Below are positions 1-59,664 of a stretch of DNA of 64,000 bases, in pieces (position 1 is the stretch's first letter; each line of letters opens with the position of its first letter). Source of the DNA: Buxus sempervirens (Eukaryota; Streptophyta; Magnoliopsida; Buxales; Buxaceae); the NCBI GenBank assembly GCA_947561395.2, contig OX387182.1:4946595-5010594 (forward strand). Direction: 5' to 3'. Below the pieces are notes generated by a model. That model ran no database searches, was not told the DNA's origin, and worked only from the letters and a program-made list of their open reading frames with translations. The translations under genes were made by a program, and so were the position numbers.

Positions 1-155
1 TTTTAAGTGCGGTTTGGTCATGACCGCACTGAAAATGCGGTTCTGACCTTCTAGAAGCTGCCACGCGTTGCTAACTGGCAGATTCGCGTAGATTCGCACG
101 TTTTAAATTCCAACCGCACTTTAAGTGCGGTTCCTGCACTTTTAGTGCAATTCAA
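1..155 (+). repeat. Palindromic array upstream of LTR L1 promoter
   Basis: Several short imperfect palindromes built from ACCGCA...TGCGGT, for example ACCGCACTTTAAGTGCGGT near 113-132, lying just before the TATA box at 181. The same word recurs downstream at 1898-1985. Confidence 0.8.
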
Positions 156-180
156 GAGGGTTTGACAGGAAAATTTTGCT

Positions 181-188
181 TATAAATA
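181..188 (+). promoter_or_regulatory. TATA box of LTR L1
   Basis: TATAAATA preceded by GAAAATTTTGCT; the same context occurs in L7 (56647-56654) and, with CCTATAAATA, in L2 (5759-5766). Confidence 0.7.
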
Positions 189-1275
189 GGCCCCAGCAGC
201 CATTATTTGGAGGAGGCCTTTTGAACCCTGTCATTACCCTGCTGCTCTGGCAATCTGAAACCTCCCAGAAGCTTTGCCCACACATCTAAACTCTTTTTCA
301 TCCCCAAAATACCCTTGGATCCCCTTTTTTCTTCTTCTCCTCTCATTTCTATTTATAAAAGAGCAAGAGGAGGTGATTTTTGGGAACGAAGGAGACTTTG
401 AAGCTACTGTCCACCTTCACGGGAGGATCACAACACTTTTAGATAAAAGGTAACACCAAGGTGAGAAAGCTTGTGATATTTTGTTCGATATAAAGTAAAA
501 TAAAGTTCCTTTGATTTTATTTTTTTGAGTTACTCTGTATTTATCTCTTTTTATTCATCTCTAACCGTTTTGATTTTATTTTGCACGTTGTGGGAGTCCC
601 CATGGTAAGAGGGACTCCCCATACGAAGAAATGGGAGGAGAGTATGTCTTTACAGAAGAAAGGGATGTTTGAATAATCTTAGACCCCATTTGTATCTTGT
701 TAATTAATCTTTCAAAAGAGCGGTTTGTCCTCTTTTCTCCATCCGATGTATCCTTAAATCCCCCTTTCCCTTCATTTATGGTTTTGTTTGCTCCATTTTT
801 TCCTGTCATATGATTGATCATCGCATCATCATGTCATCCCACGCATAGAATAAGATAAAGCGAACATTTTTATTTCCCTTTGTTTATGACCTTAACATGT
901 TTGTACAGGTTGCATGTAAACACCATACACACACCCACGTACAACATCCAAGAGCATACTTAGGTGCTTGTCTTGTCATACATGCATATCACCATGAGTA
1001 GCTGTGAATGGTTTCTTGTTTAGCATACTTTCTTGTTTAGCATACTCAATAGACTATCTATATTGATTCCACATGCATTAAAAGTTGTATCAAGCATCAT
1101 GCATGTAATCTTCTTCATTTACTGTTTGATGAATTTTAAAACATCACTTGCACACACGATCATCATTGTTTTGCTTAATTCATATGTGTTTACGTGTGCT
1201 GATTTAAGGTATGTGTGGATAATGGATGAAGGTGGTTTGTTTTAAGCCAAATTTGAGCATTGATACCACTGTGAG

Positions 1276-1797
1276 TAGGGCTGGCAATGGTTCGAATATA
1301 TATCCGAATCCGATCCGAAATTACCGAATTCGGATATAGGATTTAGATCCACGGTTCGGATACGGATCTCGAATTTCGAATCCGAATTTTTTTGGATTCG
1401 GATTCGGATATACATGTACCGATCCGAAAAAGATCCGAATCGAAAAAGATCCGAACCAAAAACATACTTATAATATATATCAACTTAGCCCAGACCATGG
1501 TGCAACCATAAGTTAAAAGGGTTAAATCATCATTTGATCATTAGACACTTGGATTTGTGTTAAAATTTATAGTTAAATTTACTTTAATTGTTAAAATTGT
1601 TTTTTAAAGTTTCAGGTTCAAACAGGCTCGAATTCGGATTTAGGATCGGATATCGGATCGAATTCGGATTTCGGATATTCATTGAATTTCGAATTCGGAT
1701 TTAAGTATTAAAGATCCGTCGGATATCGGTAAACTTTTTTCAGATCGGATTCGGATCTTAGCAGATCCGTACCATATTCGACCGATTGCCACCCCTA
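1276..1797. mobile_element. Non-autonomous hAT-type MITE
   Basis: Starts TAGGGCTGGCAATGG and ends CCGATTGCCACCCCTA, so the ends are imperfect inverted repeats. Both sides carry the 8-bp duplication ACTGTGAG (1268-1275 and 1798-1805), the size expected for hAT. Interior rich in short forward and reverse GATCCGAAT-like repeats, as in the ends of the large hAT at 13023-20139. No coding capacity. The same insertion is in unit B (57733-58234), so it predates the duplication. Confidence 0.9.
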
Positions 1798-1897
1798 ACT
1801 GTGAGTCTATTCAGAGACCCACAGAAGATCACGAATGCCCTTGGGGAGAAGTCGAGTTGAATTTCGCGGCCATTTCGGACTTTTTTGGATTTTCGGA

Positions 1898-1985
1898 CCT
1901 GAACCGCATACTCAAAGCGGTTCGGGCAAAACTACACTTGTTCTGCGGTTGTGCCTTGACCACACAAGATGTGCGGTCAGTTCCC
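1898..1985 (+). repeat. Downstream palindromic array of LTR L1
   Basis: Repeats of ACCGCA / GCGGTT / TGCGGT / GTGCGGTC in about 90 bp, the same word as the array before the promoter. Confidence 0.7.
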
Positions 1986-2770
1986 AGAAACCACAAAAAT
2001 CCAATTTCTTTGACCCGGATCCATCCGACCCAATCCAAATTTAATCAAACTGAACCATTTGGGTCCTCGGGTCAACCCAAGCCCAATTTTTGAGACGTGG
2101 GCCCATTCGGGGTCCAATAATGCTTTGTGGGCCTTCCAATGGGGCCTAAATTCAATCCGGCCCAAACCAAGGCCCATTTTCAATAAACGGGCCCAAGGCC
2201 ATTTGGATATTTGCCCATGGGTCACAACCAAGCCCAAGGGGCCTTAAAAGATTTAACCCACTAATTTCTGTAAATATAATTGAATCTCAAATCAAATAAC
2301 CAAATCCAAAAAGGGTTACCCAATAACCCTAATGGGCCTTAGGTTTGACTGAAGCCCGGTATGGAATCCCATGGGCCTTCCAACGGGGCCCACATCCAAC
2401 TCACTTCACTGAAAAAGGATAAAAAGATAAAATCGATTAAATAAAGGGGGCTAACACCTTCAGCGGTCCCCACCAGACCAAATAAATTGCATACTGGCCT
2501 AGGAAATTGGGTGAGAATAATTTGACTCGAACCAGGGAGACCCGAGGGACCCATCAAACCGACGGGGCGGGCCAGGGTGTATTGGGACTTCCCTGGACAT
2601 AACTAAGAACTTAACCAGAATCTCTAATAAGCCACAGACTAGTAAAATTAGGCCTGGATAGGCACCCTTTGTGTCTGTCTGCATCTCTCAGGCAGTGGAG
2701 ATCCAAATGTCCCGAGGCACGCACGTCCCACGTGCGCCTCGCCCGTGTGAAATCAGGTGCGCACAACTTG

Positions 2771-3278
2771 AATGTACTTTGGGTAATACATGAGGGTACT
2801 TTAGGTGTACTTTGGGCATACAATGGGGGTACCTTGGGTAATACTTGAGTGTACTTTGGGTATACTTGAGAGGTTATTTAGGTATTCTTGGAAGATACTT
2901 AAGGTACAATAGAGAGGTACCTTGAGTATTCTTAAGAGTTACTTTAGGTATTCCTAGAGGATAAATTGGGTACACTTGGGAGGTACCTTGGGTAATACTT
3001 TAAAGGTACTTTAGGTACTCTTAACTCTAATTTTTCAGAATTTGATTTCCAATTCACTAGATCTAATTGAAGGATACCTTAGCCAGTTGTAATTTAGACA
3101 TAACACTAACTAAGCTTATCTTAATAACTTCAATAAAGTTTAATTTGATTTCCCTAAAGTTTCAATTATAATCTACATTTACCTCATCTTCATAATACAA
3201 TTACTTAATTAATCTAATAATCACGCTTTAGATAATTAATCTTAATAATGAAGATATAATCCGGGTCGGGGTTTTACA
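2771..3278 (-). mobile_element. Tail of older LTR E0 with GTACyTT tandem repeats
   Basis: From 2771 to about 3020 there are degenerate units of about 22 bp containing GGTACTTTGGGTAATAC-like sequence, then AT-rich DNA ending CGGGGTTTTACA at 3278. The matching stretch in unit B is 59178-59664, where it closes the long LTR E0 that begins at 45791. Read on the minus strand it starts TGTAAAACCCCGACC, a common plant LTR 5' end. No gene. Confidence 0.7.
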
Positions 3279-3665
3279 AGAAGAGTTCCCATGAGAGATT
3301 ATTTGATCACTCTGTCCCAATTTAATAAAATTTCGATCTTTCCCACAAATGGGTAGGTATACATCTACTTCCGTGTTGAAATGAATACAAAGACATATAT
3401 GATGTGAAGTGTGAAAAGAAGAGCTCACCAAGTTTGAAATATCATCTACTTTGTTATTAAATAAATTGGGCAAGAAGAGTTCCCATGAGAGATTTTTTGA
3501 TCGCTCTGTCCCAATTTAATAAAATTTCAGTCTTTCCCACAAATGAGTATGTATACATCTACTTCTGTGTTGAAATGAATACAAAGACATATATGATGTG
3601 AAGTGTGAAAGGAAGAGCTCGCCAAGTTTGAAATATCATCTACTTTGTTATTAAATAGATTGGGC
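3279..3665. repeat. Two tandem copies of a ~190-bp repeat
   Basis: The block starting AGAAGAGTTCCCATGAGAG and ending ATTGGGCA is present twice in succession (about 3279-3471 and 3472-3665). It is duplicated in unit B (59665-60057), and a partial copy lies left of E0 at about 45672-45790. Not coding. Confidence 0.85.
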
Positions 3666-5521: not shown

Positions 5522-5748
5522 ATGTGCTGGACCGTATTTGAAGTACGGGTGAGGCATGCCCGTATTTCAAATACGGGTAAGCTTCTAGAAGGGGACGCGT
5601 GTCGCTGTACGGCGGGATACGCGTCCCGTACGGCCGATTCTGCGAGATTTGAAAATGTGCGTTTTTCGCCCGTACTTGAAGTACGGGCAAGGCACGCTCG
5701 TACTTGAAGTACGGGCAAGGCATGCCCGTACTTCAAATACGGGCACGA
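5522..5748 (+). repeat. Palindromic array upstream of LTR L2 promoter
   Basis: At least five palindromes of the form CCCGTACTTGAAGTACGGG or CCCGTATTTCAAATACGGG, some joined by CAAGGCATG. The last ends about 10 bp before the TATA box. The 12-mer GGCATGCCCGTA (5719-5730) is repeated in the downstream array. Confidence 0.88.
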
Positions 5749-5766: not shown

Positions 5767-6549
5767 GAGAGGCCACCCCCTCATTTCAGCAAGCCTTTCT
5801 CTTGGCCGAAACCCACTTCCTCTAGGTGTTTTTCAGGACCAAACTCTACCCAATTGTCACCATGCCCAATACCCAAAATACCCCATCCTACTTAAACCAT
5901 GCCTAATCCCTCTCTTTTAGCCTTCATTCAATTCCACCTCAACAAACCTCTTTCAAAATCATCCTAAGAAAACTCGGAGGACGCGGAAGCACTGCCAAAA
6001 TCTTTGGAGGACCTCAATATCATCTAAACAAAGAAATAAGAGTGTGGTAATGTTTCTTTTAACTTCTATTTCAGTACATACATAAACTTCTTTATTTAAA
6101 GAGTGTTAAATTTTATTGCTTTATTACATTGTCTACTAACCCTTTTGTTTATTGTTGATAAGATTCCTCTATGCGAATTTGAATGTCCATATGAAAAGAG
6201 AAAGAGGAAATTCAAAAGAAAGAATGAAATTGTCATAAGATCCATCCTATGGGTCCATTTGAAAATGCAAGAGAAATTTATCCAATTTAGATCATCCCCT
6301 GTAATCTCCCCTATTCCTCCCTTTGAGAACAGCCATGAATGATTAAGAAGAAGGTTTTTTTTCCCCGGTGAAACATAAAGGAAGAAGAAATGGCTTTTTA
6401 AGCCAAATGGAGCAAATGAAGAGTCATGAAGGCCATGAAGAACCCGACGGAAGACGCCGGACGTCCCAGAAAATTAACCAAGTTGATCCCAAGCAAAATC
6501 GGCACCAGAAATGCAAAATTGGCCGCGTCCGTAAACTCAGAGCGGTCCA

Positions 6550-6633
6550 GGCATGCCCGTAGTTAATCTACGGTCTGGCCTGAACCGTATTAAAATTACG
6601 GTTCTGACCAGACCGTGAATTAAATACGGTCAC
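6550..6633 (+). repeat. Downstream palindromic array of LTR L2
   Basis: Starts with GGCATGCCCGTA (6550-6561), then TACGG, ACCGTAT, ATTACGGT, GACCGT and ATACGGTC. It aligns with the L4 array at 46828-46930, but with CGTA/TACG wherever L4 has CGCA/TGCG. Confidence 0.82.
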
Positions 6634-11185: not shown

Positions 11186-11584
11186 GGGTATGCGCCGACC
11201 TCCGGGCGCTAGGCGCGAGGTCAGCGCGAAGTGGGCGGACCGAAAACAGCGAAAAAGCACCTGCGGGCAATGTGGGCGCGAGGTGAGCGCACCCAAAAAA
11301 AAGAAGTAGGCGCGAGGTGAGCGCACCCAAAAATGAAGTGGGCGCGAGCTGAGCGCACCCAAAAATGAAGTGGGCGCGAGCTGAGCGCACCCAAAAATGA
11401 AGTGGGCGCGAGCTGAGCGCACCCAAAATGAAGTGGGCGCGAGCTGAGCGCACCCAAAAATAAGTGAGCACGAGCTGAGCGCACCCAAAAATAAGTGAGC
11501 GCGAGCTGAGCGCATCCAAAAAAGGAAGTGGGCGCGAGTTCAGTGCACCCAAAAAGGAAGTGGGCGCGAGCTCAGCGCATACCC
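11186..11584 (-). repeat. GC-rich 32-bp tandem array in LTR L3
   Basis: About ten units of GTGGGCGCGAGCTGAGCGCA followed by CCCAAAAATGAA, length about 32 bp with small changes. The array is bounded by GGGTATGCGC (11186-11195) and its reverse complement GCGCATACCC (11575-11584). The second word also closes the promoter-side palindrome at 12285-12294. Long minus-strand frames across the array are by-products of the repeat. Confidence 0.88.
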
Positions 11585-12244: not shown

Positions 12245-12298
12245 CAAGGGGGTATCCGCTAAGCTTGCGCTGAGCGCAAGCTTAGCGCATACCCCTTG
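12245..12298 (-). repeat. 54-nt near-perfect palindrome upstream of L3 promoter
   Basis: Core GCTAAGCTTGCGCT, one G, then AGCGCAAGCTTAGC; outer arms CAAGGGGGTAT and ATACCCCTTG. A second hairpin with arms GAGCGGCC and GGCCGCTC follows at about 12308-12350. Confidence 0.92.
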
Positions 12299-13014: not shown

Positions 13015-14968
13015 CCGCCCGCTAGGACTGTAAACGGAGCGAATACAGAGCGGATCCTGTTGAATCCGAATTCGAATCCGTTTAAGTAATAGGATATCCG
13101 TATTTGTTTAAATATTCGACGGATATTTGAAATACACTACCAAGTCCGAATCCGATAAAAAATTGAACATCCGTATTCGTATCCGATTGTATTCGAATTC
13201 GATTAAATATTCGAATCCGTTAAGAGATCCGAAAATCTGATTAAATTTCACCATTACAGCATGAAAAAATTAGAAAAATTTACAGCATAAAAGTTCTACT
13301 CCAGCTTTCCCCATAAAAAATTACAGCATAAAATTTCATCTAATTGAAAGTTCTGCTCCAACATAAAAAATTACTGCATAAAAAATTACAGCATAAACTT
13401 TCATCTAATTGAAAGTTCTACTCCAGCATAAAAAATTACAACATAAAAAATTACAGCATGAAGGGTTTTGGTTCTCATTCTCTAGCCTCTTTATCAATGA
13501 AAATTCTACTCCTAGTAACCTGAAAACTTCATATAGTATCATGGTTACCTGCAATACAAAATTCAATAATTTCAAAGAGCTTGAATATATAAAATGTCAA
13601 AGTGTCATTAACATATAAACTGAAACAGAACCAAGAGCAACAAATACCATCACGGCAAGTAAATCCAGTGCTTCAACTTAAATTCTAGCCAGGAGCACCA
13701 ATCAATCACGGTACTATAGTTCATGACAGTAGCCCATTCTCCAACATTATTCACAGCCAATTTTAAGCTCTCTTTTACAAAGATCATGTAAAAGTATACT
13801 AATAGATGCCAATATCCTTATAACCCTTTGAAAACATCTCAGTGCACAAAGCTGTCTAGACTCCACAATCCTCCATGAGTACAAGAAGCAAGAATAGACC
13901 CAAATGTGCTCCAATGAGGTTTAAACCCACTCACCATCTCATCAAATAACTCTACACCACAACGTAAATTCTAATCCTCCATCATAGAATTTATAGATCA
14001 GAAAATTACCACTCGAATCCAAATCCACAAACCTAAACCACCACCCATCTCAAAGAACCTCATCCAGCCAAACACACTGATCTAAGCCAAAAATGAGTGA
14101 AGCAAATTACATAGTTCTCTAAAACTTTTTTGTCATAATAAACACTTCATACACAATCAATTTGCTGAAATGTACAAATAAGACTAGAAATTTAACTCAC
14201 CAATTTCTTCTGTTCATTCTGCTTTTTCTCCTTCCAAATTTCAGAACTAAATTGATGAACTAGATAACTTCAATTCAAAATAAAAATGAACGAAAAAAAA
14301 TCTATAGGTCTGAATTCTATCAGCTTAATCAGTTATCGTGTTGAACAGTTTCCTAAAGATAGGAGGTGATCCAGACAATTTGTTGCAGCATTTGAAATGA
14401 TTTTGGAAACTGATTTTTGAGTCTAACCCTAGCTACAAAAAACAGATCCAAATCCTAAAATAAAGATGCACTAAAAGGATAACATTTTTGCTATTTAAGT
14501 CCAACCAAAATGATTTGAATTCTTACAGTCGTGGTGCTCTAAGCTGCCAATAATTTTATGTTATGTACCTTCAATATCATGGCCTTCATATTACCATATA
14601 AATAAATATTTTAGAGCTTGATTGCTCTAAGCTGCTTGATTGCTGAAAGGCTTTAAAAATATTTTAGAGCTGTTATGGCAAACAAGAAACTACGATAAAT
14701 GTGAAACACTAAAAGCACAGTAAGTTGTTTCCAGTGGAAACTGTTTTTCAAGAATTTATCAGAGTTTCAGGTATCTTTCCAAGCTGATTAAACAGAAATT
14801 TTTTTTCTCTCTTTTAAACAGAAAATCCTTTCTCTTGGGTCTTTGTCAGGGAATTAAATCTCGTTTTCAGATTTACCCGGGCAATTCTGCCTCATGAAAT
14901 TAACTCTTGCTCTAATAAATTCCAGGGACTTTGTACATATTAAACTAAGATGAGGGAAAGAGTCTTGC

Positions 14969-15568
14969 CTTTCATTGTTGAGGCTTTTGTAGCAGCTTTT
15001 GACTCCTCATTTGCATCCTGTAAATGAAAAGGACAGGAAAAAAATATGCATATATATTAGAAATCTGTTGTAAGTTAAAATTAGTTAATTGACCTGGTTA
15101 AAACCATAATATTGCAAAAGTACTGCACCTGAATAATCAGTGTAAAATCTGCATCTTGAAGTACTTTTAGCCTGTTGATCCTAATGACACATATGGAGCT
15201 GAATTTGTGAAATTATGTGAATATGGACCAAACAAGGTGAAAATTCTACTACTATTTCCTAGTCACTTCTTGTGATCATAGTAGAACTGTTGTTATAATT
15301 TGCACAAAGATGTGAGCTTTACACCCCTTGATCAGATGGAATGATATTAAACTTAAATATAAAGAGAAGATAGAAAGCCTGGCTGTGATATAAGTGCTGT
15401 AAGCCCTGGTGTAGGACCAGGAAGACATGCTTTTCATCATAAAATCACATTTCTAACTGCCTCCATGGATACAAAGTAGCACCTATTTTATGAGATAAAA
15501 ATAATTCATACCTTGAGTTTCTGGAGTAGATCAGAGAGCCTTTCCATCTGTTTCTCAACCCCTTGAAT
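14969..15568 (-). pseudogene. Two captured exons of a syntaxin (SYP13-type) gene
   Basis: On the minus strand, exon 15568-15512 follows ..TTTCAG and is followed by GTATGA; it reads IQGVEKQMERLSDLLQKLK in phase 0. Exon 15017-14969 follows ..TTTACAG, reads DANEESKAATKASTMK plus one base, and is followed by GCAAGA, the consensus of the rarer GC-AG introns. Joined across the 494-bp intron they match the start of the N-terminal helical region of plant plasma-membrane syntaxins of the SYP132 group, where DANEESKSVTKASAMK-like sequence follows a KLQ-type exon end. No further exons were recognised on either side, so the fragment is partial. It lies inside the hAT, downstream of the transposase and in the same orientation, so it could be read as a 3' extension of the transposase transcript. 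Confidence 0.8.
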
Positions 15569-16177
15569 CTGAAATGAAAAGCAGCAAAAAAATAAAATAA
15601 AATTTTAAAAAAAAAAAATAAACAGGAGACACATGTAAATTAAATCTGGTTCAAATTTGAATGGATCACATTCAATCTGGTTCTCACCTTAGAGCACCAC
15701 TTACTAGTTCAAATTTGTTTTAAGGAGAGAATTACCTAACCAAATGAAGCAGCAGCAACAGGTTCCTCAGAGAAATACCTAAAGAAAGTTTCCAAGGGAG
15801 AATCTAACACTCTAAAACAAAGTGAATAATGGAGAATCTAACACACTAAAACAGTTAAATAACCACAGCATAAATAAAATAAAAATTTGGGATAAGAAGT
15901 TCAAACAGTTATACAATAAAAAGTTGGGATAACAGGAGGTTACTTCATGAGAACTTGAGAAGTCTAAAACATTTAAAAAAAGTTCCTTAATAACTAAAAC
16001 AAAGTTTTGATTCTTCTGTTACTTCATATATCCAGCAAGGAAGCAACACCATCTTGACTTCTCCTGCACATTCATATAAAATTTAAGAAACAGAAGCAAG
16101 CTAGAAAAAATGAACAAATAAAGTAAATGAACAAATATACTTATATACTTACTTTTCAAGATAAATGCAATTGAATT

Positions 16178-18227
16178 CTCTATTCATTGTCATCAGAGTC
16201 TAAGAAAAAAAAAAGCAAATGAACAAATAAAATTGAAAGGATAAAAAATGAATTATACTATAGAAAACTAAATATAATTATATACTTACTTTTCTTCTTT
16301 TGAACTTCCAACCAATCACGTGCACAGATCAAAGCCTCCACTATCTCCGGGGTCAAAGAGCTGCGAGTGTCATCAATAAGCCTACCTCCAGCGCTAACAG
16401 TCTACTCTAAGGCGACAGTAGAAACTGGGATTGCTAAAATATCACGAGCCATCTTTGCAAGTGCTGGAAATTTAGGACTATTGACTTGCCACCAATCCAA
16501 AATATCAAATTCTTGACTACAAGGAAATATTGTGTCATCCAAGTATCGGTCAAGTTCAGATTTTTCCGAAGCACGGATAGTAGCACTTCTTACACTCTTA
16601 TACCAATTTTGAAAACCCATAAGCATGTCATTACTTGAGGAATTGCATGGAGGCTGAGAGCTACTACAAGTACTATCACTTACATCAAAACTAGACTGCA
16701 TCACATTATGGGAATCACCACTATACTCAGTGAAAAGATCCACAACAGCAGTGCGAATCCTCATTACATACACATCAGCATTAGTACCATAAAGTTCACC
16801 ATAAAAATACTCAACTAAATCCATCTTGAATCTTGGGTCAAGTACAGTAGCGATCGCCAAAACCAAATTGCAAGAATCCCAATATTTTTCAAATTTGAGT
16901 TTCATTTTAAAGGCCATATCACGAACATATGCATGCTCACTTTTCTCCATATCTAGCAAGTGCTTGTGAATCTTACAGATATCAGGAAAAAATAGATTTG
17001 CAGTTGGATACTTGTAACCAGAAAAAGCACAAGTAACTTCATAAAACACTTTCAAACATCCACAAACAACTTGAGCCGTATCCCATTCTTCCTTGGATAA
17101 ATTCACATTGAATTCACGATCAATTTGCTGGAGACGAACAAATGCCTCTCTCAACTCTAGTGCTCTCTCAAGCATCAAGAAAGTGGAATTCCACCTAGTC
17201 TTCACATCAAGAATAACACCTTTTCTCCCAAATAACTTCACTTGATTTAAGGCATTTTTAAACTTTTGCTTCTTTTGAGGTGTTGATCTAACATACCGAA
17301 CACTTTTCCTGACATTCTTAATGATTTCTTTTATTTCTTGTAACCCATCTTGGACAATAAGATTAAGAATGTGTGCACTACAACGAATATGAAATAAACT
17401 TCCACCCAAAGGAAGTAAATTCTGATCCTCAAGCCATCTTCTTAACTCTCTGACCATTGCATCATTCGTACTAGCATTATCAACAGTTATAGAAAACAAC
17501 TTTTTATCAATATTCCACTCCAAAACCACATCTTTGATCAATCCAACGAGTGTCTCTGCATCATGTGGACTCTCTAAAGACATAAAACTCAGAAGTTTCT
17601 TTTTCAAGTCCATCCTTCATCAATGAAGTGTATTGTCACACAACAATACCCAATGTTTTGCTCACTAGATGTCCATAAATCTGTAGTCAAGCTAATACGA
17701 GAAGACAGTTGATCAAAAGAATCATACAACTTCTTCTTCTCTTCCTTGTATACAACAAGAACATCAGCCCTTACAGTATTCTGTGATACCATTTTAAACA
17801 TTGGCTGTAAGTTGTTAACAAAAGTCTGAAAATACTCATGCTCAACCATGTTAAAACTGTATTCGTGCTTAATAATCATCTTTACCAAGTCCATTCTACT
17901 TCTTTCATGATCAAATTTAAAATTCCTCACACCACTAGAACTCCCCTTACTCTTGGTAATTGCTAACATTTGCTGACCTATATCTCCATGTTTTCTCCTA
18001 GGACACCTATGCAAATGATTTTTTAAATGTGTTGTGCCACTACTACTTGCTCCAGTAAATGTCCTTTTGCAATGATTACATGAAGCAATTTCAACTCCAT
18101 CTTCCCCTGTGATCTTCTTAAAATCATCCCACACCTTCGATGTTAATTTTCTAGGCCTCTTTAAATTTGGGTCAGGTGAGACCTCTACTTCTACCATGTC
18201 ATCCTCAATAGTAATAGGATTAGACAT
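16178..18227 (-). pseudogene. hAT transposase, RICESLEEPER-like, broken
   Basis: Reads from ATG at 18227 (MSNPITIEDD). Residues ~30-75 form a BED zinc finger (VWDDF, CNHC, HLKNHLHRC). The RNase-H-fold core has TTDLWTS and TVDNASTND, holding two candidate acidic residues, and a DUF4413-type segment (KYWDSCNLVLAIATVLDPRF). The C-terminal hAT dimerisation domain starts near DRYLDD. One base is missing at about 17610: frame 1 stops after DEGWT and frame 2 continues with LKKKLLSF. A TAG at about 16405 cuts the dimerisation domain between VALE and TVSAGGR, after which the same frame runs on through LTPEIVEALICARDWL. The frame reaches a GTAAGT near 16290; an AG at about 16199 would add SDDNE and a stop at 16178. 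Both lesions should inactivate it. Confidence 0.9.
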
Positions 18228-19873
18228 TTCAACAATTTATCCTTCAATACAAAAAAAAAAATTAATTAACACATAATGGATTACTTGTAATTTAAGTAGA
18301 CAAGCACAACCCAAAATTACCATTAAAATACTAAGATGGGTGCATTAAGCAGATGTATCAAAGTTTCGAAAAATTACTAGGACATAAAAAAAAAAACTGA
18401 GCAATATATACTCCTACAACTTGTAACCGAAGTCCCTAATTCACAAAAGAATGAATTTTTCAAATAAAAAATTTCCCAGCAGAAATGATAATGCAACCAG
18501 TACTTGGGAAGACCATAATTTGATTACAAGAGAGAAAAAAGAAAAATAAATAAACAATAGGTCTTACTTGGGACAGTTGCCAAGAAATTGCAAGCCTTTG
18601 TTTCAAAAGTTTCATGTTGGCAAATTTGAATACATCATATATATATATATAAAGTTGCTACCGAAGCCAGATCATTTCTCAATCCAGAAAGAAGCCACTT
18701 TATTGTTTGAATTATATAACCATAGAACCCAACTCAAAACATCATAAACATTATTTACAAACCAAGTATCATAAGAAAAAAACAACATTATTAAACTAAA
18801 ACAATTATCGATAGGTCTAAAAAGAATATAATGCATACCAAAATACATATGTGATTCTCATACCCATTATAATGAAAAAAATATTCTATATAATTTTAAT
18901 AGGTGATTCTATTTCTTTAAAAACCGTCCATCTCAAAACCAAGTAACAGTCATTCAACCATCCAGTATGGTATGTGCTTTACAATATCAATCCTAAATAC
19001 AATGTTTCAAAATAAAATCATAAGGATAGGAACTCAAGATGAATCAAGATTCGAAGTACCAAATTGATTGATCCATAAGTATATTCTTTTAAATAAATAA
19101 AATTATATTTAAAAATGAATCGCATTGAAAGATAGCCATGTTTGCATTCACCAAAGCAATCAGTTAAGAAGAATGTCTAAATACAAATGGTCTTCAAATA
19201 TTCACCTCGAATGCCAATGCCTGAGCGAAGGTAAAAGCCAGACCAATACTGGATGAAAATGAGAATAAGTAAAACAAAAATCCTCTTCTGGATCAACCAA
19301 AGCCCTCTTTCAAATGGCCAATAAGAGTTGTAGCAAATAGAAGTTCACAATACAGGACGGCCAAGAACTTGCCGTCCACTGCTAAGACTTCTCGAACTAC
19401 TAGCTGTGACTCCAAGAATCGAACTACTAGCTCCGAGCGATCCGCCAAATTTCTTGGTTTCTTGGTCGGTCTGTCAAAACGAAATGCTCATGTGATTTTG
19501 GGAACTCCAGATCTTTAAGAATATAAATAAACAAATGGGATTTGGGGTTGGGGGGGGGGGGGTAGAGAGAGAAATAGAGAGAGGGCGAGAGAGCACGGTG
19601 AGAAGAAGATATCGAGTGCAGAGAGAGGGCAGCGAACCAGTGCAAGGTGTTCGGTCTCCTGACTCTCCTCTTCTTCGTCTTCATTTCCTTCTGAACTAGA
19701 GAGAGCAAGAGAGAGAGGGAGAAAGAGCACGGTGAGAAGAAGAAATCGAGTGTAGAGAGAGGGTAGCGAACCAGTGGAAGCAAGGTGTTCGGTTCGGTCT
19801 CCTCTTCTTCAGTTCTTCGTCTTCGTTTCCTTCAGGTAGAGGGTTAGGGTTTAGGGAAAAATCGAAATGTTGC

Positions 19874-19880
19874 TTTTATA
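19874..19880 (-). promoter_or_regulatory. Candidate TATA box of hAT transposase
   Basis: Minus strand TATAAAAGCAAC, followed by a CT/GA-rich leader with a ~130-bp direct repeat (about 19590-19655 and 19727-19795, plus strand). It is 1.65 kb before the ATG, so a 5' leader intron is likely. Confidence 0.5.
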
Positions 19881-20345
19881 GATAGAGCATAAAATGACTT
19901 TATTATCCTCAATACTATATGTAATTTACAAATACATTATACTTATTTAATCGGATTCGGATCTTAATCGGACGGATATTGCCCTGATCCGAATCCGAAT
20001 CCGATTATAAACGGATCCGAAAATCGGATCCGAATCCGATCCGACGGATCATTTAATCGGTTAAAAATCCGATTAAATCGGATAATTTAATCGAAAACGG
20101 ACGGTAAACGGGTCATGATCCGATCCATTTATAGCCCTACCGCCCGCAGAACCCTTATCCGGACTCCGATTCCTGCAAACTCAGTTGCGTTGGAACCGTG
20201 TCGGGATTCTCTATCCAATGATATAAAGCGAGGTGGTCAATTTTCACTTGATCAAAAAGTCAACTTTTTGTCCCCTCAGGGTTTGACTTTCTGCTAGGGT
20301 TTTCATTTTCAGCACTTCCAGAGGTGCAAAAATAAGGTGCTTACA

Positions 20346-29245: not shown

Positions 29246-29508
29246 AATTTATTAGTCCAAACGTTATTATTTGAGTTCGATTCGGTTCATTAATTGGTTT
29301 CAGGCCACAAATGAAACTTGCCTAAACCAAGTGCAAACTAAATGCTCAATTCAAGCTTTTATTCCGGTTGGGTCGAATGGGCTTTGGCGGTCGGGTTAGG
29401 TTTACAACTAAAAGCTCGGATAAGGAGAGATATTTCTGCACTACTGAGTTCTTTTTCTTTTGTTCCACTCCTTTATTTTCTTCTTTGTATCACCTTATCC
29501 CAGAAACA

Positions 29509-45790: not shown

Positions 45791-46827
45791 TGTAGCACCC
45801 TAGACCCAGGTCTGCCCTATCACGACACCAATCCGTCCCTGAGACCTACTTATGGGCCCAATAGAACTTGATATACACAATTTCTTGGGCAATTACAATG
45901 TAATCATCAAAGTGCATAAGCTAAAGAAGCATGGAATAAAAATTTTCCATTCAACCAAAGATCACCTGTATTATAATTTACAAAACATGATATCTGTGTA
46001 TATAAAATACAACTAAGGCAACTAAATGCTCACAAGTTTATAAGTCCAAAAATAATATTTACATCCCATAAACAATTTCCCAAAACAAAATACTACATCA
46101 TAAAGAGAATCCTACTGTGCGCACCTAATTTTGGATCGCACTCTGGGCGTACGTGGAGTTCGTGCGTGCCTCGGGACTTTCGGGTTGCTAGTGCCTGAGA
46201 AGTGCAGGTAGACACAAGGATTGCCTATCCGGGTCTAAGTCTGGTCTGCGGCTTATTAGGGTTCTGGCTAAGTCCTCGGTTACGTCCGGGGAAGTCCGAA
46301 GACACCCCGGCCCGCCTCGTCAGTCTTACGGGTCCCTCGAGTCTCCCTGGTTTTTGAGTCAATTTCATCCTTCCTAGACCAGCATGCCACTTTTTCAGTC
46401 TGGTGGGACCCTCTGATGGTGTGGGCCCCTTTTTATTTCATTTTTTTATCTTTTTATTTAAGTGAGGTGGGTCAAATACGGTTCCCGTTGGAAGACCCGT
46501 GGGATGCCAAAATTTGGGCTTGGCCCCAGTAGGGTTACTGGGTAACCCTTTTTGGTTTATTGAATTAATTACATATGTTAAAGGCTTAATGGGCTTGGAC
46601 ATGACCCAATAGCACTTAAGCAAATGGCCTTGGGCCCGTTTATTGGAAACAGCTCTGGTTTGGGCCGGTCAGAGTATGGGCCCCATAGGTGGGCCCATTT
46701 AGGCCCACAGTCCACAGGTGGGCTTAAAATAGCCCAAATTGCTTAATGGATCGGATTTCCATGGTTTGGTTCGGGTTGAGTCCATTTGGGTCAAAAAATT
46801 ACATTTTTTAAGTTATTTTGAAACCGA

Positions 46828-46930
46828 TCGCATTTATTATGCAGTTTGGCCTAAACCGCAGGCGTAATGCGGTTCAGGCCAGACCGCATATTAAGTGCAG
46901 TCATACCTGGACCGCACTGCAAGTGCGATT
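46828..46930 (-). repeat. Downstream palindromic array of LTR L4
   Basis: AACCGCAGGCGTAATGCGGTT, GACCGCATATTAAGTGCAGTC and GACCGCACTGCAAGTGCG-like units in 100 bp, paralogous to L2 6550-6633 with a different core. Confidence 0.82.
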
Positions 46931-47751: not shown

Positions 47752-48340
47752 GACTTTTTTCTGTGACTGCATTTGAAGTGCGGTCGGCCGCCCATGTGCA
47801 CGAAATCGCGTCGAATCAACCAGCTGTCGCTCCGTACGGGACACGTGTGACCGCATTTAAAAAGATTCTTATCCGATTTATTAATATCTTTAGATTTTTT
47901 TTAAAATATTATTAGAAAATTAAGATATTTTCTAAAAACAATTATTTTATTTATTTTATTGATTTATTTTGCTTTTTGCTGCTGTTTTTGACACATGGGC
48001 AGTTTTCTTGAAACTTCAACTGTCCATAACTTCTTCGTCCGGTATCCGATTTCAGCAAACTTAGTGCCGTTGGAATCGGCTCGGAACCCACTATCCCAGT
48101 CAAACTTTTTGCTCCCCAAAAGTTTGATTGGTTCATAACTTTCTCATCCGGACTCCAATTCCAGCAAACTCAGTTGCATTAGAATCGTGTCGAAGTGCTC
48201 TTTTCAATGGGATGAAGTTTGATGGCCAAATTCACTTGAATCAAAAAGTCAATTTTTTGACCCCCTCAGGGTTTGACTTTTAGTTTGACTTTTCATTTTT
48301 CTTCATTTTAGGGGTGCAAAAATCAGGTACTAACACCTAC

Positions 48341-49394: not shown

Positions 49395-49468
49395 CGAGCG
49401 GCCGCATTTAATGATTTCTCATCATGCGGTCGCTCGAGCCAATGTGGCAAGCAAGTGGGCGCCCCTTT
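49395..49468 (+). repeat. Hairpin and GC word upstream of LTR L5 promoter
   Basis: Arms CGAGCGGCCGCAT (49395-49407) and ATGCGGTCGCTCG (49424-49436), 12 of 13 paired. Then GTGGGCGCCCCTTT at 49455-49468, ten bases before the TATA box. Confidence 0.85.
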
Positions 49469-49485: not shown

Positions 49486-50097
49486 GCCGCGCGAAATCTC
49501 GCGCAGGAGGTGGGAAGTTTTTTTTGGAAAAAAAGCTAAGTGTTCGGCATCATTTTTCTGGGCTCGGGGTTTTGAAGATAAAAACCAGACACACAGGCCC
49601 CCTCCCTTCCTCTTCTTCCTCGTCAAATCCGAAGGAGGCCGCGCTCTTGGTGTGAGAAGAAGGTTGCTCCGACGGCCGCTCGCGCGCTCCAAGGAGGCTT
49701 CCTCCACTTCGGAGAGGTGTTAGGAACACCCAGGTAATGTTCTCAATGGCCACTGTTCCAAAATAAATAAGTCCATTGGTATCTGTTATTTTCTGTTATT
49801 TCGTATAGTAGCAGTGATGGTGTGATTCGAGGGGGGAGCATGTTCTCCCTGATGTTTGCATCTTCTGTATCCCATAAAGCCCCCAGTCCCCTTCCTTGCA
49901 TGTTCTGTTAGTGTTTAGGTGTTCGAATTTGCAGGTTTACAAGGAGGTTTGATTTTCATAAAAATGTGTTTAGATTAAATCCAAAACTAGTTGGGAAGTG
50001 TTCTGGGCATGTTAGGAGGCTAGTGGAACAGTTACAGACCGAAAAAAACCGGACAGAGATGGAGATCTCAAAAAAACAGAGAGTTGAAAATCACAGT

Positions 50098-50375
50098 GAC
50101 CTGCCGCCCACCTGGCGCCCACCTGGCGCTCACCTAGGAGGTGGGCGCCCCTTTTAGCTCACTTCCCGCCGAGCTGGCGCCCACCTAGCGCTCAGCTCGC
50201 GCCCACCAAAAAACAGGCGAAATTCTCGCGCCCATCTCGCGCTCACCTCCCACCCATCTCGCGCTCACCCCCCGCCCAGCTCGCGCTCACCTGGTATCGG
50301 GTGAGCGCCAGGTCAAAATTTCGCCCAGATTCTGGCGCCCATCTGGCGCTCACCTCAGGAGGTGAGCGCCAGGTC
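50098..50375 (+). repeat. GC-rich array downstream in LTR L5
   Basis: Repeats of CTGGCGCCCACCTGGCGCTC and CTCGCGCTCACC. GTGGGCGCCCCTTT (50141-50154) is identical to the promoter-side word at 49455-49468. Confidence 0.88.
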
Positions 50376-51579
50376 CAAAACAGGCCGAATTGTCATTTTT
50401 TTTGAAAATTCCAAAAATACCCCTTGTCATACCGCAGGGGGCTTCGCCCCCCGCACCCCCTACCCCTTCACTTCGCCCACAAGGCCCCCGGGTACCTCCC
50501 CTTGGACCCAGCACATTGAGCCATCTTTTTCTTGATAGGGTGTCAATTTTGTGTATTTTCTTATGTGATTATTGCTGAATGTGGGTTTTATTTCCAAACC
50601 GAACCGGATGAACCAATAGGGTTCCCGGGTCACCCGGAAACCCAACATGGGCCATGGACCGACCCGGTCCAAATTGATTTCCGGTGGGCCTTCCAACGGG
50701 GCCCACCAAGCCCGACCAACCCATTCATGCTTAACTAAGATAATAAAAGATTTGAGTGGGCCAGACCACTTGAGGCCCACCCAAGCCCTAATTGGGCCAT
50801 GTATGATTAAAGTAGGATGTGGTTTGGCCGAGACCACGGGTAGGGCCTATCGGGCCCACTAAGCCCATGAACCCCGACCAACTTAGGGTTTCCAAACACT
50901 AAGTCAGGAAGCCTTGGGCTTTCAAGCCCAAGCCCAGGTAAAGGGCCCCAAGCCCAGTACTTGGCCCGTGTTGGCACAGATAAGAAAGATAAAATCAAAA
51001 TCACTTGGCAACCCATTGTGGGGCCCACTCAAGGGCCCACAAAGCAATCCCGGCCCACTTTTGGCATGAAATCCACTTAACTAATCCAACTTGAACTCTA
51101 AAATAAAATCAATTCAAAGTGAGCAAAAATCCAAAAGGGCCACACTTGGCCCACCAAGGGATACCGTGGGCCTTCCAACGGGGCCCACCCCACCAGGCTC
51201 AGATCATCTTAATAAAAAAGATAAAATCAAGTAAAGGGACCCACACCACTTTGGCGGTCCCGCCAGACTTAATCAAAATTGCATGCTGGAATAGGAATCG
51301 GGTGAGTGAGAGACCAAAGTTGACTCAAACCAAGGAAACCTATGGGACCCGTCACTTGACGGGGTGGACTGGGGTGTCTACGGACTTCCCCAGACCGCAA
51401 CCGAGCCCCTACTTAGAATCTCAAAGCCGCAGACCAAAAGCCTTAGTAGAAGAACTTAGGCACCCAGGTGTCTGCCTGCACCCCATCAGGCAGTGGCGAC
51501 TCCAAACAAAACCCCGAGGCACGCATCGTTGTTTTGCGTGCGCCTCGTCGTGCGACCGAAACCGGGTGCGCACACCAAG

Positions 51580-53402: not shown

Positions 53403-53700
53403 AGGTGTACCTAAGGCATCCTAAGGGGGTATCTTAGTGTTAAGTGGGGGTACCTTAGTGTTATTTAAGGGGGTACTTTGGTGTTTTAAGGGGTACTTTG
53501 GTATTTTAAGGGGTTTTCCTTAGCTATTTCAAGGAGTATATACTTTAGGGGTGCTTGGGAGTACCTTAGTTATACAAGAGGGGGGGGTACCTTAGTTATA
53601 AGAGGGGGTACCTTTGTTATATAAGGGAGTACTTTAGTTTTACAAATGGGGGTACCTTAGCTATAAGGGGGTGTACCATTAGGTAATAAAAGTGGGGTAC
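53403..53700 (-). repeat. ~22-bp GGTACCTTAG tandem array of E0, left part
   Basis: Units such as GGGGGTACCTTAGTTATAAG, degenerate. Interrupted by L6 at 53700/53701; continues at 55677-55883, again interrupted by L7, and ends at about 59415. Confidence 0.85.
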
Positions 53701-55251: not shown

Positions 55252-55259
55252 TATTTATA
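55252..55259 (-). promoter_or_regulatory. TATA box of LTR L6
   Basis: Minus strand GCTTATAAATAGAAG. Confidence 0.6.
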
Positions 55260-55454: not shown

Positions 55455-55570
55455 AAACCTGTACCCGCATATTTAATGCGGTCGTGCCTTGCTCGCATTG
55501 TTAATACGGGCACGGCATGACCGCATATCAACTACGGGCATGACCAGACCGCAGATAAAATGCGGGCATT
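55455..55570 (-). repeat. Palindromic array of LTR L6
   Basis: CCCGCATATTTAATGCGGTC, TTAATACGGGCACGGCATGA, CCGCATATC and CAGACCGCAG...TGCGGGCA: the word is a mix of the CCGCA and CCGTA forms. About 200 bp upstream of the TATA box. Confidence 0.75.
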
Positions 55571-56464
55571 GCATGTTTGACCAAATTTTACACTTTTTTT
55601 ATCTGTTTCAAATCCCAATTACATATTTTTAATTATTTTCTCGTTTTGTAATGCAATTTGGGGTGTCTACAGGTACCTTAGGTAAATCAGAGGAGTACCT
55701 TAGGCAATACAAGGGGGTACCTTAGGTATTTAAGTGGGGTACTTTAGGAATACAAGAGGGTACCTTAGGTATTCAAGTGGGGTACCTTAGGTAAAACAAG
55801 GGGGTAGTTTAGGTATTCAAATAGGGTACCTTAGGCAACACATGGGGGTACCTTAGGTGTACTTGAGTGGTACTTTGAGTAACACTTGTGTCAGCACCTA
55901 TTTTTGCTCCCCCAAAAATGCAGACAATGAAATTCTAATCTATAAAGTCAAACCCTGAGGGGGCCAAAAGTTGACTTTTTGATCAGGTGCAAATTGACCA
56001 CCATACTTCTTTCCATTAAAAAGGAAATTCCGATACGGCTCCCACGCAACTGAGTTTGCTTAAATCGGAGTCCGGATGAAGAAGTTATGAGTTAGTCAAA
56101 CCGTGTGGGGAGCAGAAATTGACTTTCTGCTAAAAATAGAATTTACCGCCATACTCTAGCTCAGTGGATAGAGAATTTCGAGTTGATTCCAACGATGCCA
56201 AGTTTGCTGAAATCGGACATCGGACGAAAAAGTTATGGCTGGTCAAAGTTTCAGAAAAACTGCCCACGTGGCAAAACAGCATCAAAAGGCAGAATAAATA
56301 AATATCAGAGATTAAGTAATTGTTTTATAAAAATATCTTGATTTTTAAATAATATTTTAATAAAAAATCTTGATTTTTGTAATAAAATATTCATAAAATC
56401 GGATAAAATCTTGCTTATAAACTAAATTGAATAAGAGATTTTCAAATCCAGCATTTAAAAAACG

Positions 56465-56618
56465 TGCACGATCGCATTTTAAGTGCGGTTTGGTCATGAC
56501 CGCACTTAAAATGCGGTTCCGACCTTCTAGAAGCTGCCACGCGTTGCTAACTAGCAGATTCGCACGTTTTAAATGCCAACCGCACTTTAAGTGCGGTTCC
56601 TGCACTTTTAGTGCAATT
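56465..56618 (+). repeat. Palindromic array upstream of LTR L7 promoter
   Basis: CGCATTTTAAGTGCGGT, ACCGCACTTAAAATGCGGT and ACCGCACTTTAAGTGCGGT, 30-180 bp before the TATA box. The downstream partner is 58339-58420. Confidence 0.88.
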
Positions 56619-56646
56619 CAAGAGGGTTTGACCGGAAAATTTTGCT

Positions 56647-56654
56647 TATAAATA
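56647..56654 (+). promoter_or_regulatory. TATA box of LTR L7
   Basis: TTGCTTATAAATAGG, as in L1. Confidence 0.7.
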
Positions 56655-57732
56655 GGCCCCAGATGCAATTATTTGGAGGAGGCCTTTTGAACCCTGTCAT
56701 TACCCTGCTGCTCTGGCGATCTGAAACCTCCCTGAAGCTTTGCCCACACATCTAAACTCTTTTTCATCCCCAAAATACCCTTGGATCCCCCTTTTTCTTC
56801 TTCACCTCTCATTTCTATTTATAAAAGAGCAAGAGGAGGTGACTTTTGAGAACGAAGGAGACTTTGAAGCTGCTGTCCACCTTCACTGGAGGATCACAAC
56901 ACTTTTAGATAAAAGTTAACACCAAGGTGAGAAAGCTTGTGATATTTTGTTCGATATAAAGTAAAATAAAGTTCCTTTGAGTTTATTTTTTTGAGTTACT
57001 CTGTATTTATCTCTTTTTATTCATCTCTAACCGTTTTGATTTTATTTTGCAATTTTGCACACTGTGGGAGTCCCCATGGTAAGAGGTACTCCCCATATGA
57101 AGAAATGGGAGGAGAGTATGTCTTTAAAGAAGAAAGGGATGTTTGAATAATCTTAGACCCCATTTGTATCTTGTTAATTCATCTTTCAAAAGAGCGGTTT
57201 GTCCTCTTTTCTCCATTTGATGTATCCTTAAATCCCCCTTTCCCTTCATTTATGGTTTTGTTTGCTCCATTTTTTCCTGTCATATGATTGATCATCGCAT
57301 CATCATGTCATCCCACGCATAGAATAAGATAAAGCGAACATTTTTATTTCCCTTTGTTTATGACCTTAACATGTTTGTACAGGTTGCATGTAAACACCAT
57401 ACACACACCCACGTACAACATCCAAGAGCATACTTAGGGGCTTGTCTTGTCATACATGCATATCACCATGAGTAGCTGTGAATGGTTTCTTGTTTAGCAT
57501 ACTCAATAGACTATCTATATTGATTCCACATGCATTAAAAGTTGTATCAAGCATCATGCATGTAATCTTCTTCATTTACTGTTTGATGAATTTTAAAACA
57601 TCACTTGCACACACGATCATCATTGTTTTGCTTAATTCATATGTGTTTACGTGTGCTAATTTAAGGTATGTGTGGATAATGGATGAAGGTGGTTTGTTTT
57701 AAGCCAAATTTGAGCATTGATACCACTGTGAG

Positions 57733-58234
57733 TAGGGCTGGCAATGGGTCGGATATATATCCGAATCTGACCCGAATCCGATCCGAAATTACCGAATTCG
57801 GATATAGGATTTAGATCCACGGTTCGGATACGGATCTCGAATTTCGAATCCGAATTTTTTTGGATTCGGATTCGGATATACATGTACCGATCCGAAAAAG
57901 ATCCGAACCGAAAACATACTTATAATATATATAAACTTAGCCCAGACCATGGTTCAACTATAAGTTAAAAGGGTTAAATCATCATTTGATCATTAGACAC
58001 TTGGATTTGTGTTAAAATTTATAGTTAAATTTACTTTAATTGTTAAAATTGTTTTTTAAAGTTTCAGGTTCAAACAGGCTCGAATTCGGATTTCGGATAT
58101 TCATTGAATTTCGAATTCGGATTTAAGTATTAAAGATCCGTCGGATATCGGATCAAATTTGAATATCGGTAAACTTTTTTCGGATCGGATTCGGATCTTA
58201 GCAGATCCATATATTCGACCGATTGCCACCCCTA
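57733..58234. mobile_element. Non-autonomous hAT-type MITE (B copy of 1276-1797)
   Basis: Ends TAGGGCTGGCAATGG and TTGCCACCCCTA, flanks ACTGTGAG (57725-57732) and ACTGTAAG (58235-58242). Same site as in unit A, with small internal gaps between the two copies. Confidence 0.9.
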
Positions 58235-59664
58235 ACTGTAAGTCTATTCAGAGACCCACAGAAGATCACGAATGCCCCTGGGGAGAAGTCGAGCTGAATT
58301 TCGCGGCCATTTCGGACTTTTTTGGATTTTTGGACCTGAACCGCATACTCAAAGCGGTTCGGGTAAAACTGCACTTGTTCTACGGTTGTGCCTTGACCAC
58401 ACAAGATGTGCGGTCAGTTCCCAGAAACCATAAAAATCCAATTTCTTTGACCCGAATCCATCCAACTCGATCCAAATTTAATCAAACTGAACCATTTGGG
58501 TCCTTGGGTCAACCCAAGCCCACTTTTTGAGACGTGGGCCTTACAACAGGGCCTAAATTCAATCCGGCCCAAACCAAGGCCCATTTTCGATAAACGGGCC
58601 CAAGGCCATTTGGATATTTGCCCATGCGTCACAACCAAGCCCAAGGGGCCTTAAAAAATTTAACCCACTAATTTCTGTAAATATAATTGAATCTCAAATC
58701 AAATAACCAAATCCAAAAAGGGTTACCCAATAACCCTAATGGGCCTTAGGTTTGACTGAAGCTCGATATGGAATCCCATGGACCTTCCAATGGGCCCACA
58801 TCCAACTCACTTCACTGAAAAAGGATAAAAAGATAAAATCAATTAAATAAAGGGGGCCTACACCTTCAGCGGTCCCCACCAGACCAAATAAATTGCATGC
58901 TGGCCTAGGAAATTGGGTGAGAATAATTTGACTCGAACCAGGGAGACCCAAGGGACCCATCAAACCGACGGGGCGGGCCAGGGTGTATTGGGACTTCCCT
59001 GGACGTAACTAAGAACTTAACCAGAATCTCTAATAAGCCACAGACTAGTAAAATTAGGCCCGGATAGGCATCCTTTGTATCTGTCTGCACCTCTCAGGCA
59101 GTGGCGACTCCAAATGTCCCGAGGCACGCACGTCCCACGTGCGCCTCGCCCGTGTGAAATCAGGTGCGCACAACTTGAATGTGCTTTGGGTAATACATGA
59201 GGGTACTTTAGGTGTACTTTGGGCATACAATGGGGGTACCTTGGGTAATACTTGAGAGGTTATTTAGGTATTCTTGGAAGATACTTAAGGTACAATAGAG
59301 AGGTACTTTGAGTATTCTTAAGAGTTACTTTAGGTATTCCTAGGGGATAAATTGGGTACACTTGGGAGGTACCTTGGGTAATACTTTAAAGGTACTTTAG
59401 GTACTCTTAACTCTAATTTTTCAGAATTTGATTTCCAATTCACTAGATCTAATTGAAAGATACCTTAGCCAGTTGTAATTTAGACATAACACTAACTAAG
59501 CTTATCTTAATAACTTCAATAAAGTTTAATTTGATTTCCCTAAATTTTCAATTATAATCTACATTTACCTCATCTTCATAATACAATTACTTAATTAGTC
59601 TAATAATTACACTTTAGATAATTAATCTTAATAATTAAGATATAATCCTGGTCGGGGTTTTACA

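Follow-up and report, generated by a model that had tools for sequence, protein, structure and literature searches.

Inverted-dyad arrays with CGCA and CGTA dialects in long terminal repeats of Buxus sempervirens

Long terminal repeats and their arrays in the window

A 64-kb stretch of Buxus sempervirens DNA (the window) was found to contain five solo long terminal repeats (LTRs), L2, L3, L4, L5 and L7, all bounded by TG...CA ends and a 5-bp target-site duplication (TSD), and the arrays of short palindromic words that these LTRs carry are the subject of this work. As a first-pass annotation of the sequence had described, each LTR has one word cluster just upstream of its TATA box, in U3, and a second one about 0.6–1.2 kb downstream, when a miniature inverted-repeat transposable element (MITE) is excluded; the seven strings tested were all found where that annotation had placed them. 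A further copy, L1 (1..2765, forward strand), is cut by the window edge, so that its 5' end lies outside. L1 and L7 correspond to one insertion within a segmental duplication (93.6% identity over 5 kb, flanks included), and the window therefore holds five independent LTRs. Genome-wide counts refer to the 676-Mb genome of the same plant.

L2 (4970..7424, forward strand; TSD CAGGG), which sits in a Ty3/Tat-like element, exhibited a U3 array of the CGTA type at 5531..5743, with dyads of 19 bp each at 5531, 5559, 5669, 5697 and 5725, and a downstream array at 6528..6630, with dyads at 6528, 6556, 6584 and 6612, in which 7 out of the 8 half-sites were CGTA or CGTG. Both arrays of L4 (46116..48335, reverse strand; TSD CCTAC) were of the CGCA type, with a single dyad (47766), remnants and one CCCGTACGG in U3 (47766..47857), and dyads at 46827, 46855, 46883 and 46911 downstream (46827..46929). 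L7 (55889..59172, forward strand; TSD ACTTG), which has a MITE inside, showed CGCA-type U3 dyads at 56471, 56499 and 56579 (array 56471..56597) and downstream dyads at 58340, 58368 and 58396 (array 58340..58414), with CGTA in 1 of the 6 half-sites. In its segmental duplicate L1, dyads were located at 23 and 113, and at 1903, 1931 and 1959. An LTR of another family, L8, exhibited four dyads in its U3 array (55464..55566, reverse strand), with CGCA and CGTA mixed.

The arrays of L3 and L5 (clade B) are built on a GCGC-N7 module of 11 bp. L3 (10068..20345, reverse strand; TSD GGCTC) is split by a hAT element (about 13023–20134). Its promoter-proximal U3 palindrome (12250..12295) is a GCGC-N7-GCGC module, and its downstream array (11186..11584) is a 32-bp tandem with GCGC modules, edged by GGGTATGCGC and GCGCATACCC. 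L5 (48828..51574, forward strand; TSD CCAAG) has the word GTGGGCGCCCCTTT in U3 (49455..49468) and the 11-bp module downstream (50095..50395).

Geometry of the dyads

The arrays are more regular than the first-pass annotation had described. In L1/L7, L2, L4 and L8, the dyad consists of the half-site [A/C]CCG[C/T]A, a spacer of exactly 7 bp and the reverse complement T[A/G]CGG[G/T], and the next dyad usually follows 9 bp on. With at most one mismatch, 28 dyads were observed in the window against 1.57 expected, 27 of them inside arrays, and the arrays are therefore not due to chance. Exact half-site pairs in the window were separated by 7 bp in 14 cases and by 18 bp in one; no other gap from 0 to 30 bp was observed. 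Back-to-back pairs had a gap of 11 bp between pentamers in 11 cases (2 outside arrays) and of 13 bp in one.

Genomic copies of the L2, L4 and L5 types were drawn from the best-scored 40 of 3492, 1455 and 4155 candidates, respectively, and 39/39, 31/39 and 14/39 non-self copies were fetched. Of the exact half-site pairs lying no more than 30 bp apart, 113 of 120 in the set of 31 copies and 212 of 213 in the set of 39 had a gap of 7 bp. The dyad step within blocks was 28 bp, with 27-bp downstream steps in one subfamily (L033–L045) and a single one in L047; the U3 arrays of L2-type copies comprised two blocks about 100–110 bp apart. Across 22 L2-type copies, the per-pair difference was 0.03–0.08 at positions 2–4 of the downstream half-sites, the conserved CCG core, with 0.13 in the spacers and 0.17–0.28 in the flanks. 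No dyad at up to one mismatch was present in the 7-kb internal region of one full-length copy.

Genome-wide, the 33-bp pattern CCGYA-N7-TRCGG-N11-CCGYA gave 31,024 matches (15,501 forward and 15,523 reverse), most of which come from the same neighbouring dyads on the two strands, so that dyad pairs number roughly half of this figure; its backwards control gave none. Moving one base from the linker to the spacer (N8/N10) left 2 matches, with 12 for the corresponding backwards control. Among the genome-wide matches listed (roughly the first hundred for each pattern), the spacers were very diverse, and half-sites and spacing were persistent. The arrays, with these roughly 31,000 pattern matches, are real, very regular and widespread.

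CGCA and CGTA dialects

In the genomic copies, position 5 of the half-site was C or T and position 1 mostly A or C, and CCG was retained in most half-sites. The 31,024 triplets were all CGTA in 22,455 cases, all CGCA in 3,883 and mixed in 4,686, a single dialect thus being present in 26,338 (85%). As an estimate, with the mixed triplets split evenly, independence predicts about 250 all-CGCA and about 15,000 mixed triplets; the arrays are therefore strongly homogeneous, although copies of transposable elements are not independent. In many U3 dyads, one half-site was CGCA and its partner CGTA: in the copies from the L4 search, the two position 5 bases (n = 102 dyads) were CT in 43, TT in 39, TC in 12, CC in 7 and TA in 1.

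The switch from CGCA to CGTA in L2

The downstream arrays of L2 and L4 align unit by unit, and the T at position 5 of the seven L2 half-sites was found in 0/8 half-sites of L4, in agreement with the first-pass annotation, according to which CGCA is replaced by CGTA in nearly every unit. In U3, position 5 of L2 was T in 4/4 half-sites of the distal pair when compared with L7, and in 2/2 of the proximal dyad when compared with L4, from which the spacer did not differ. Taking both arrays together, 13 of 14 homologous half-sites had gone from CGCA to CGTA. Outside the arrays, the change from GCA to GTA in L2 was observed at 3 of 30 aligned sites from L4 and 3 of 33 from L7 (Fisher's test, arrays versus outside: p = 1.4e-7 for both arrays, 7e-5 for the downstream array alone and 4e-5 for U3 alone). 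As the change is rare outside the arrays, a general mutation bias does not explain it. CpG or general C-to-T decay was likewise ruled out, position 5 lying outside the CpG and the change being found at only 3/30 sites beyond the arrays.

The spacers and linkers of the L2 and L4 downstream arrays differed at 17 of 55 sites, about as much as the neighbouring U5 (69.9% identity), and the L2 downstream array was therefore not overwritten; a copy of the U3 array laid over it was ruled out, since the spacers retain homology to L4. Position 1 of L2 was C in 9 out of 10 U3 half-sites versus 1 out of 8 downstream (A in 6 out of 8), so the word shared by the two arrays is a partial one.

Coupling between the two arrays of a copy

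The first-pass annotation had claimed that both arrays of an LTR use the same word. This held at one position in the L2 lineage; overall the claim was weak, and in the L5 group it proved false. Even in L2, the U3 word is CCCGTA and the downstream word mostly ACCGTA; the U3 of L4 carries CCCGTACGG in addition to its CGCA-type dyad, and the U3 array of L8 is mixed. The U3 array of L7 aligned better with the downstream array of L4 (score of 22.5) than with its own (9.5, reached by 61/500 shuffles). For the other copies, the score of the local alignment between a copy's own arrays was reached by 0/500 shuffles (L2 and L3), 1/500 (L5) and 3/500 (L4). Permutations within clades of the window (1–2 of 12 for k-mers, 4 of 12 for the alignment score) involved too few copies to decide.

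Of the 39 L2-type copies fetched, 38 had at least two dyads per array, L047 having a downstream array only, and every U3 half-site counted had T at position 5, as did a fraction of 0.75–1.00 of those downstream. The 31 further places from the L4 search included copies of the CGCA type and of the CGTA type, together with a large class in which the U3 dyads were asymmetric. When two dyads were required in each array, 12 of 73 copies were lost, including the mostly-CGCA L4, L050, L054 and L062; in the 61 copies retained, Spearman's coefficient between arrays was 0.34 at position 5 (p = 0.008) and 0.40 at position 1 (p = 0.001), and after collapsing to 26 copies it was 0.24 (p = 0.24) and 0.37 (p = 0.06), respectively. 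A second set comprised 65 copies with at least one dyad in both arrays, and was reduced, after a length filter on the inter-array region, to 28 non-redundant ones at 8% distance. In these, position 5 gave a Spearman's coefficient of 0.56 (p = 0.002) and a partial Mantel r of 0.58 (0/2000 permutations), and position 1 gave 0.53 (p = 0.004) and −0.04, respectively. Independent nearest (sister) pairs were not significant at position 1 (p = 0.30) or at position 5, where the difference exceeded 0.2 in only 4 of the 14 pairs (p = 0.48 over the 14). One copy, L058, was discordant, with a CGTA-type U3 (8/8) and 2/8 downstream.

In the non-L5 clade, the outcome that the first-pass annotation had named as refuting the coupling was obtained in part: position 5 correlated over 28 copies, but sister pairs gave no significant result and words were mixed. 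We read this as coupling at the level of the lineage, at position 5, with clear exceptions. Strictly copy-specific words were rejected, as genomic copies mix words, L058 is discordant and the L5 group is uncoupled. The trees built from U3, the middle part and U5 disagreed, with rows changing place among them, and the LTRs therefore recombine. In the U5 tree, L4 and L7, both CGCA, each grouped with CGTA copies; because other parts of the LTR give other trees, we do not take this grouping to prove that switches occurred in parallel.

Arrays of the L5-like copies

In the 15 L5-like copies (L5 and the 14 fetched), the downstream sequences were 92–99% identical to that of L5. The word GTGGGCGCCCC was present downstream in 14/15 copies versus 5/15 in U3, and the coupling fails in this group, because the U3 site has been swapped independently of the downstream array; copies mixing words between their two arrays, which the first-pass annotation had held incompatible with coupling, are what was found. 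The stretch of 110 bp preceding the TATA box, in which those 5 copies carry GTGGGCGCCCC, contained a palindrome of GCGCTCACCT/GAGCTGGGCG in 8 copies and one of GGGTACGCGC in 2. Whatever the U3 type, the downstream arrays contained GCGCTCACCT in 15/15 copies, GAGCTGGGCG in 13/15 and GGGTACGCGC in none. Most U3 words do recur downstream, though not in a copy-specific manner. The word GGGTATGCGCT of L3 was present in both L3 arrays and, in L084 and L094, in U3 only. A CCGCA-N18-TGCGG form was observed in U3 of 5/15 L5-type copies.

Full-length relatives and coding capacity

Full-length relatives, in which a pair of LTRs encloses an internal region, exist, the LTRs being 9.4–9.7 kb apart in the L2 type and 10.4–12.3 kb apart in the L5 type; the internal region of one LTR pair of each type was read. 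The L2-type copy exhibited a primer-binding-site (PBS)-like sequence, TGGCGACTCTGCTGGGGA, starting a few bases past the LTR end, and a gag open reading frame (ORF) (PF03732, E = 2.4e-13), and pol was not seen among ORFs of at least 80 aa. TGGCGACTCTGCTGGGGA may resemble the PBS of Ogre elements; a text search of the literature for the string gave nothing relevant among the matches listed. In the L5-type copy, ORFs of at least 150 aa comprised one 249-aa frame without family assignment, which was not searched against families. Neither an autonomous copy nor the Tat pol with additional RNase H that marks the Ty3 Tat/Ogre lineage was found, the two copies read having gag only or no assigned ORF.

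The first-pass annotation had also proposed that the arrays are sites for an element-encoded protein that changes with them. Binding sites fit, because the half-site spacing is fixed, the spacers are freer and one base was switched throughout an array; an element-encoded DNA-binding protein was not found among the ORFs of the two full-length copies, in which spliced genes could be missed. The elements look non-autonomous, and a putative protein reading the arrays would be supplied by the host or by a different element. For the plant mobile domain, 117 scored genomic matches were obtained, with no link to the LTRs studied here shown; by eye, among the matches and L5-type LTRs listed, one match lay 3.6 kb from such an LTR and had an internal stop.

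At about a dozen loci by eye (e.g., G000 C4:42315242 and 42318696), two of these matches share a strand and are separated by about 3.4 kb, as parts of a repeat. At G000:C4:48763257-48793000, four LTRs (in L033–L036) follow each other in 9.5-kb steps and are identical in the part used for the U5 tree, as in tandem elements sharing LTRs.

Other features of the window

The Ty3 element hosting L2 and L3 has gag upstream, and reverse transcriptase, RNase H and integrase downstream. The hAT element within L3 is flanked by an 8-bp duplication, CCGCCCGC, and contains a transposase ORF (16402–17613) and a second ORF (17604–18227); the ends of the MITEs in L1 and L7 resemble its ends (TAGGGCTGGCAATGG...). 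A PBS-like TGGCGACTCC was observed about 60–80 bp before the true LTR end (about 7345, 51500 and 59098), a placement that looks as if the LTR had grown beyond an older PBS. Related minisatellites of the GGTACCTTAGG type, with a period of 22/44/66, lie beside several LTRs (2773–3022, 53422–53700, 55672–55858 and 59180–59409). Another 22-bp minisatellite (27234–28251, reverse strand; about 46 copies) is open in several frames and encodes repeats such as PGYKSHHA. A long open frame at 29368–33837 (forward strand) corresponds to a CNL disease-resistance gene with Rx_N, NB-ARC and LRR domains. An Rfam search at the gathering threshold and two scans of viral contigs gave no match.

Interpretation of the arrays

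Our preferred reading, with a probability of about 0.6, is that the arrays are clusters of putative composite sites to which a sequence-specific DNA-binding protein would bind as a dimer, carried by non-autonomous Ty3-type LTRs. Two inverted hexamers facing each other across exactly 7 bp are the predicted site of such a dimer. They lie both directly before the TATA box and in what is presumed to be the transcribed leader, and binding may drive transcription or keep the LTR free of silencing. The putative protein would tolerate, or alternate between, the CGCA and CGTA dialects, and arrays would drift to one of them through selection, local duplication or recombination among co-mobilised relatives. 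In the L3/L5 clade, the dyad sites would have been replaced by the GCGC-N7 module, and in L5-like copies the U3 palindrome has been exchanged independently of the downstream array.

Several observations weigh against the binding-site reading. Position 5 had been picked by the first-pass annotation on the same sequence, and the p-values for the switch are therefore not blind. The linker is looser than the spacer, the gap of 11 bp between back-to-back pentamers being found in 72/91 and 115/163 pairs in the 31 and 39 genomic copies, respectively. The genome-wide spacing comparison covers N7/N11 versus N8/N10 alone, and its 31,024 matches are not independent events, given strand overlap, the many transposable-element copies and partial tandem duplication within arrays. 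In the 22 L2-type copies, spacer diversity in U3 (0.06–0.13) did not exceed the diversity at certain positions of the half-site, and in the downstream array position 1 was as variable as the spacer (0.13). Finally, the L3 and L5 arrays use a different word and spacing, and a candidate reader was not identified in the two full-length copies read.

It is quite conceivable, if tentative, that the arrays are enhancers made of sites for host transcription factors, either one tolerant factor or two paralogous ones, with dialects that would be neutral or paralogue-dependent. The geometry is common to the L8 family and to L2/L4/L7, the array abuts the TATA box and position 5 varies freely in many of the U3 dyads found among copies from the L4 search; moreover, fixed inverted spacings of 7–8 and 18 bp are known for ARF5 sites (PMC10690734), and the N18 form occurs in L5-type U3. 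The half-site, however, is unlike the ARF word TGTCGG, no motif library having been searched.

We consider unlikely an element-encoded, co-evolving factor of the VANC type, namely an anti-silencing or activator protein of an autonomous relative that shifted from CGCA to CGTA and dragged both arrays with it. The one-base switch that the two arrays of the L2 lineage made in concert and the dialect purity of 85% of genomic triplets would fit such a factor. Extra ORFs with a plant mobile domain have been reported in 57% of Ogre elements (PMC6317226), and Retand elements have been reported to carry antisense ORFs whose TRP28 domain is predicted to be DNA-binding (PMC11963269). However, neither full-length copy showed such an ORF, the single plant-mobile-domain match noted near an L5-type LTR has an internal stop, mixed and asymmetric arrays are common, L058 is discordant, and VANC motifs are one-directional whereas dyad half-sites alternate.

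Concerted evolution without function, in which slippage and template switching would have amplified and homogenised a 28-bp palindrome, seems similarly improbable. The U3 of L2 does contain 28-bp tandem copies at 90%, the LTRs are mosaic, arrays are pure in dialect, and, between the U3 array of one copy and the downstream array of another, spacers and linkers are alike at up to 18/23 sites (138 comparisons). Yet half-sites and spacing persist with diverse spacers among the matches listed, the changes in the L2 downstream array came one base at a time and not by copying, and a neutral array should contain N8 units, for which 2 matches were found versus 31,024.

Slightly more doubtful still is a large "address code" shared by several LTR families and made of tens of thousands of half-sites at exact spacing, in which the promoter and leader arrays, read by a dimeric two-dialect factor, would switch together through an element-supplied, silencing-opening factor of changed specificity, as a retrotransposon counterpart of VANC/VANDAL.

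RNA structure or end-to-end pairing of leader and 3' untranslated-region hairpins through the shared word, also raised in the first-pass annotation, is very improbable: the palindromic units are able to fold and half-sites match better within an array than when reshuffled over all arrays (p = 0.002), but a dyad's own partners match no better than same-array reshuffles (1462/2000 reach the observed value), U3 and downstream RNA pair no better within a copy (34/120 and 56/120 permutations equal it), and the many asymmetric CGCA/CGTA dyads break the stem.

Comparison with known systems

Composite ARF elements with inverted auxin response elements (IR7-8 and IR18; PMC10690734) resemble the dyads in their inverted hexamers with a 7-bp gap and in the additional use of a gap of 18. 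They differ in the word, the half-site here being [A/C]CCG[C/T]A and not of the TGTCNN form, and in that the arrays here are long and regular.

Retand elements, with their tandem repeats (PMC11963269), and Ogre/Retand elements, with their extra ORFs (PMC6317226), share with the present LTRs a plant Ty3 non-chromovirus setting and family-specific repeats, and the extra ORFs are candidate DNA-binding ones (PMC6317226, PMC11963269). Retand repeats, however, lie between pol and the 3' LTR, whereas inverted dyads lie within the LTR here, and Retand LTRs measure 315–1,194 bp (PMC11963269) versus 2.2–3.3 kb. Retrosat2 and RIRE3 (PMC3485330) are long-LTR Ty3 elements whose LTRs exceed 3 kb and whose extra ORF (ORF0) evolves fast; the main text of that source contains neither "palindrom" nor "inverted repeat", and these elements are set beside ours by description, not by kinship.

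Arrays like these were not described in the titles and abstract beginnings found in the literature, which is not proof of absence. VANDALs are DNA transposons of the MULE type. The closest analogue is provided by the VANC target arrays of Arabidopsis VANDAL elements (PMC5735166), which are likewise tandem arrays of dense, short noncoding motifs with one-base C- and T-type variants, the units changing together; dense noncoding arrays with variants changing together are also what we observed, along with mixed arrays. VANDAL elements, however, encode VANC and have motifs in one orientation (PMC5735166), whereas here half-sites alternate across a 7-bp spacer, in LTRs of elements for which the two full-length copies read showed no cognate, methylation-removing protein. 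If a protein reads the arrays, thousands of natural variants of one fixed-geometry, two-dialect composite site would be at hand, enough to infer the specificity of the factor and to examine the ways in which non-autonomous retrotransposons recruit transcription or evade silencing. Such control by sequence, common to the LTR promoter and leader, would then parallel, in retrotransposons, the VANDAL system.

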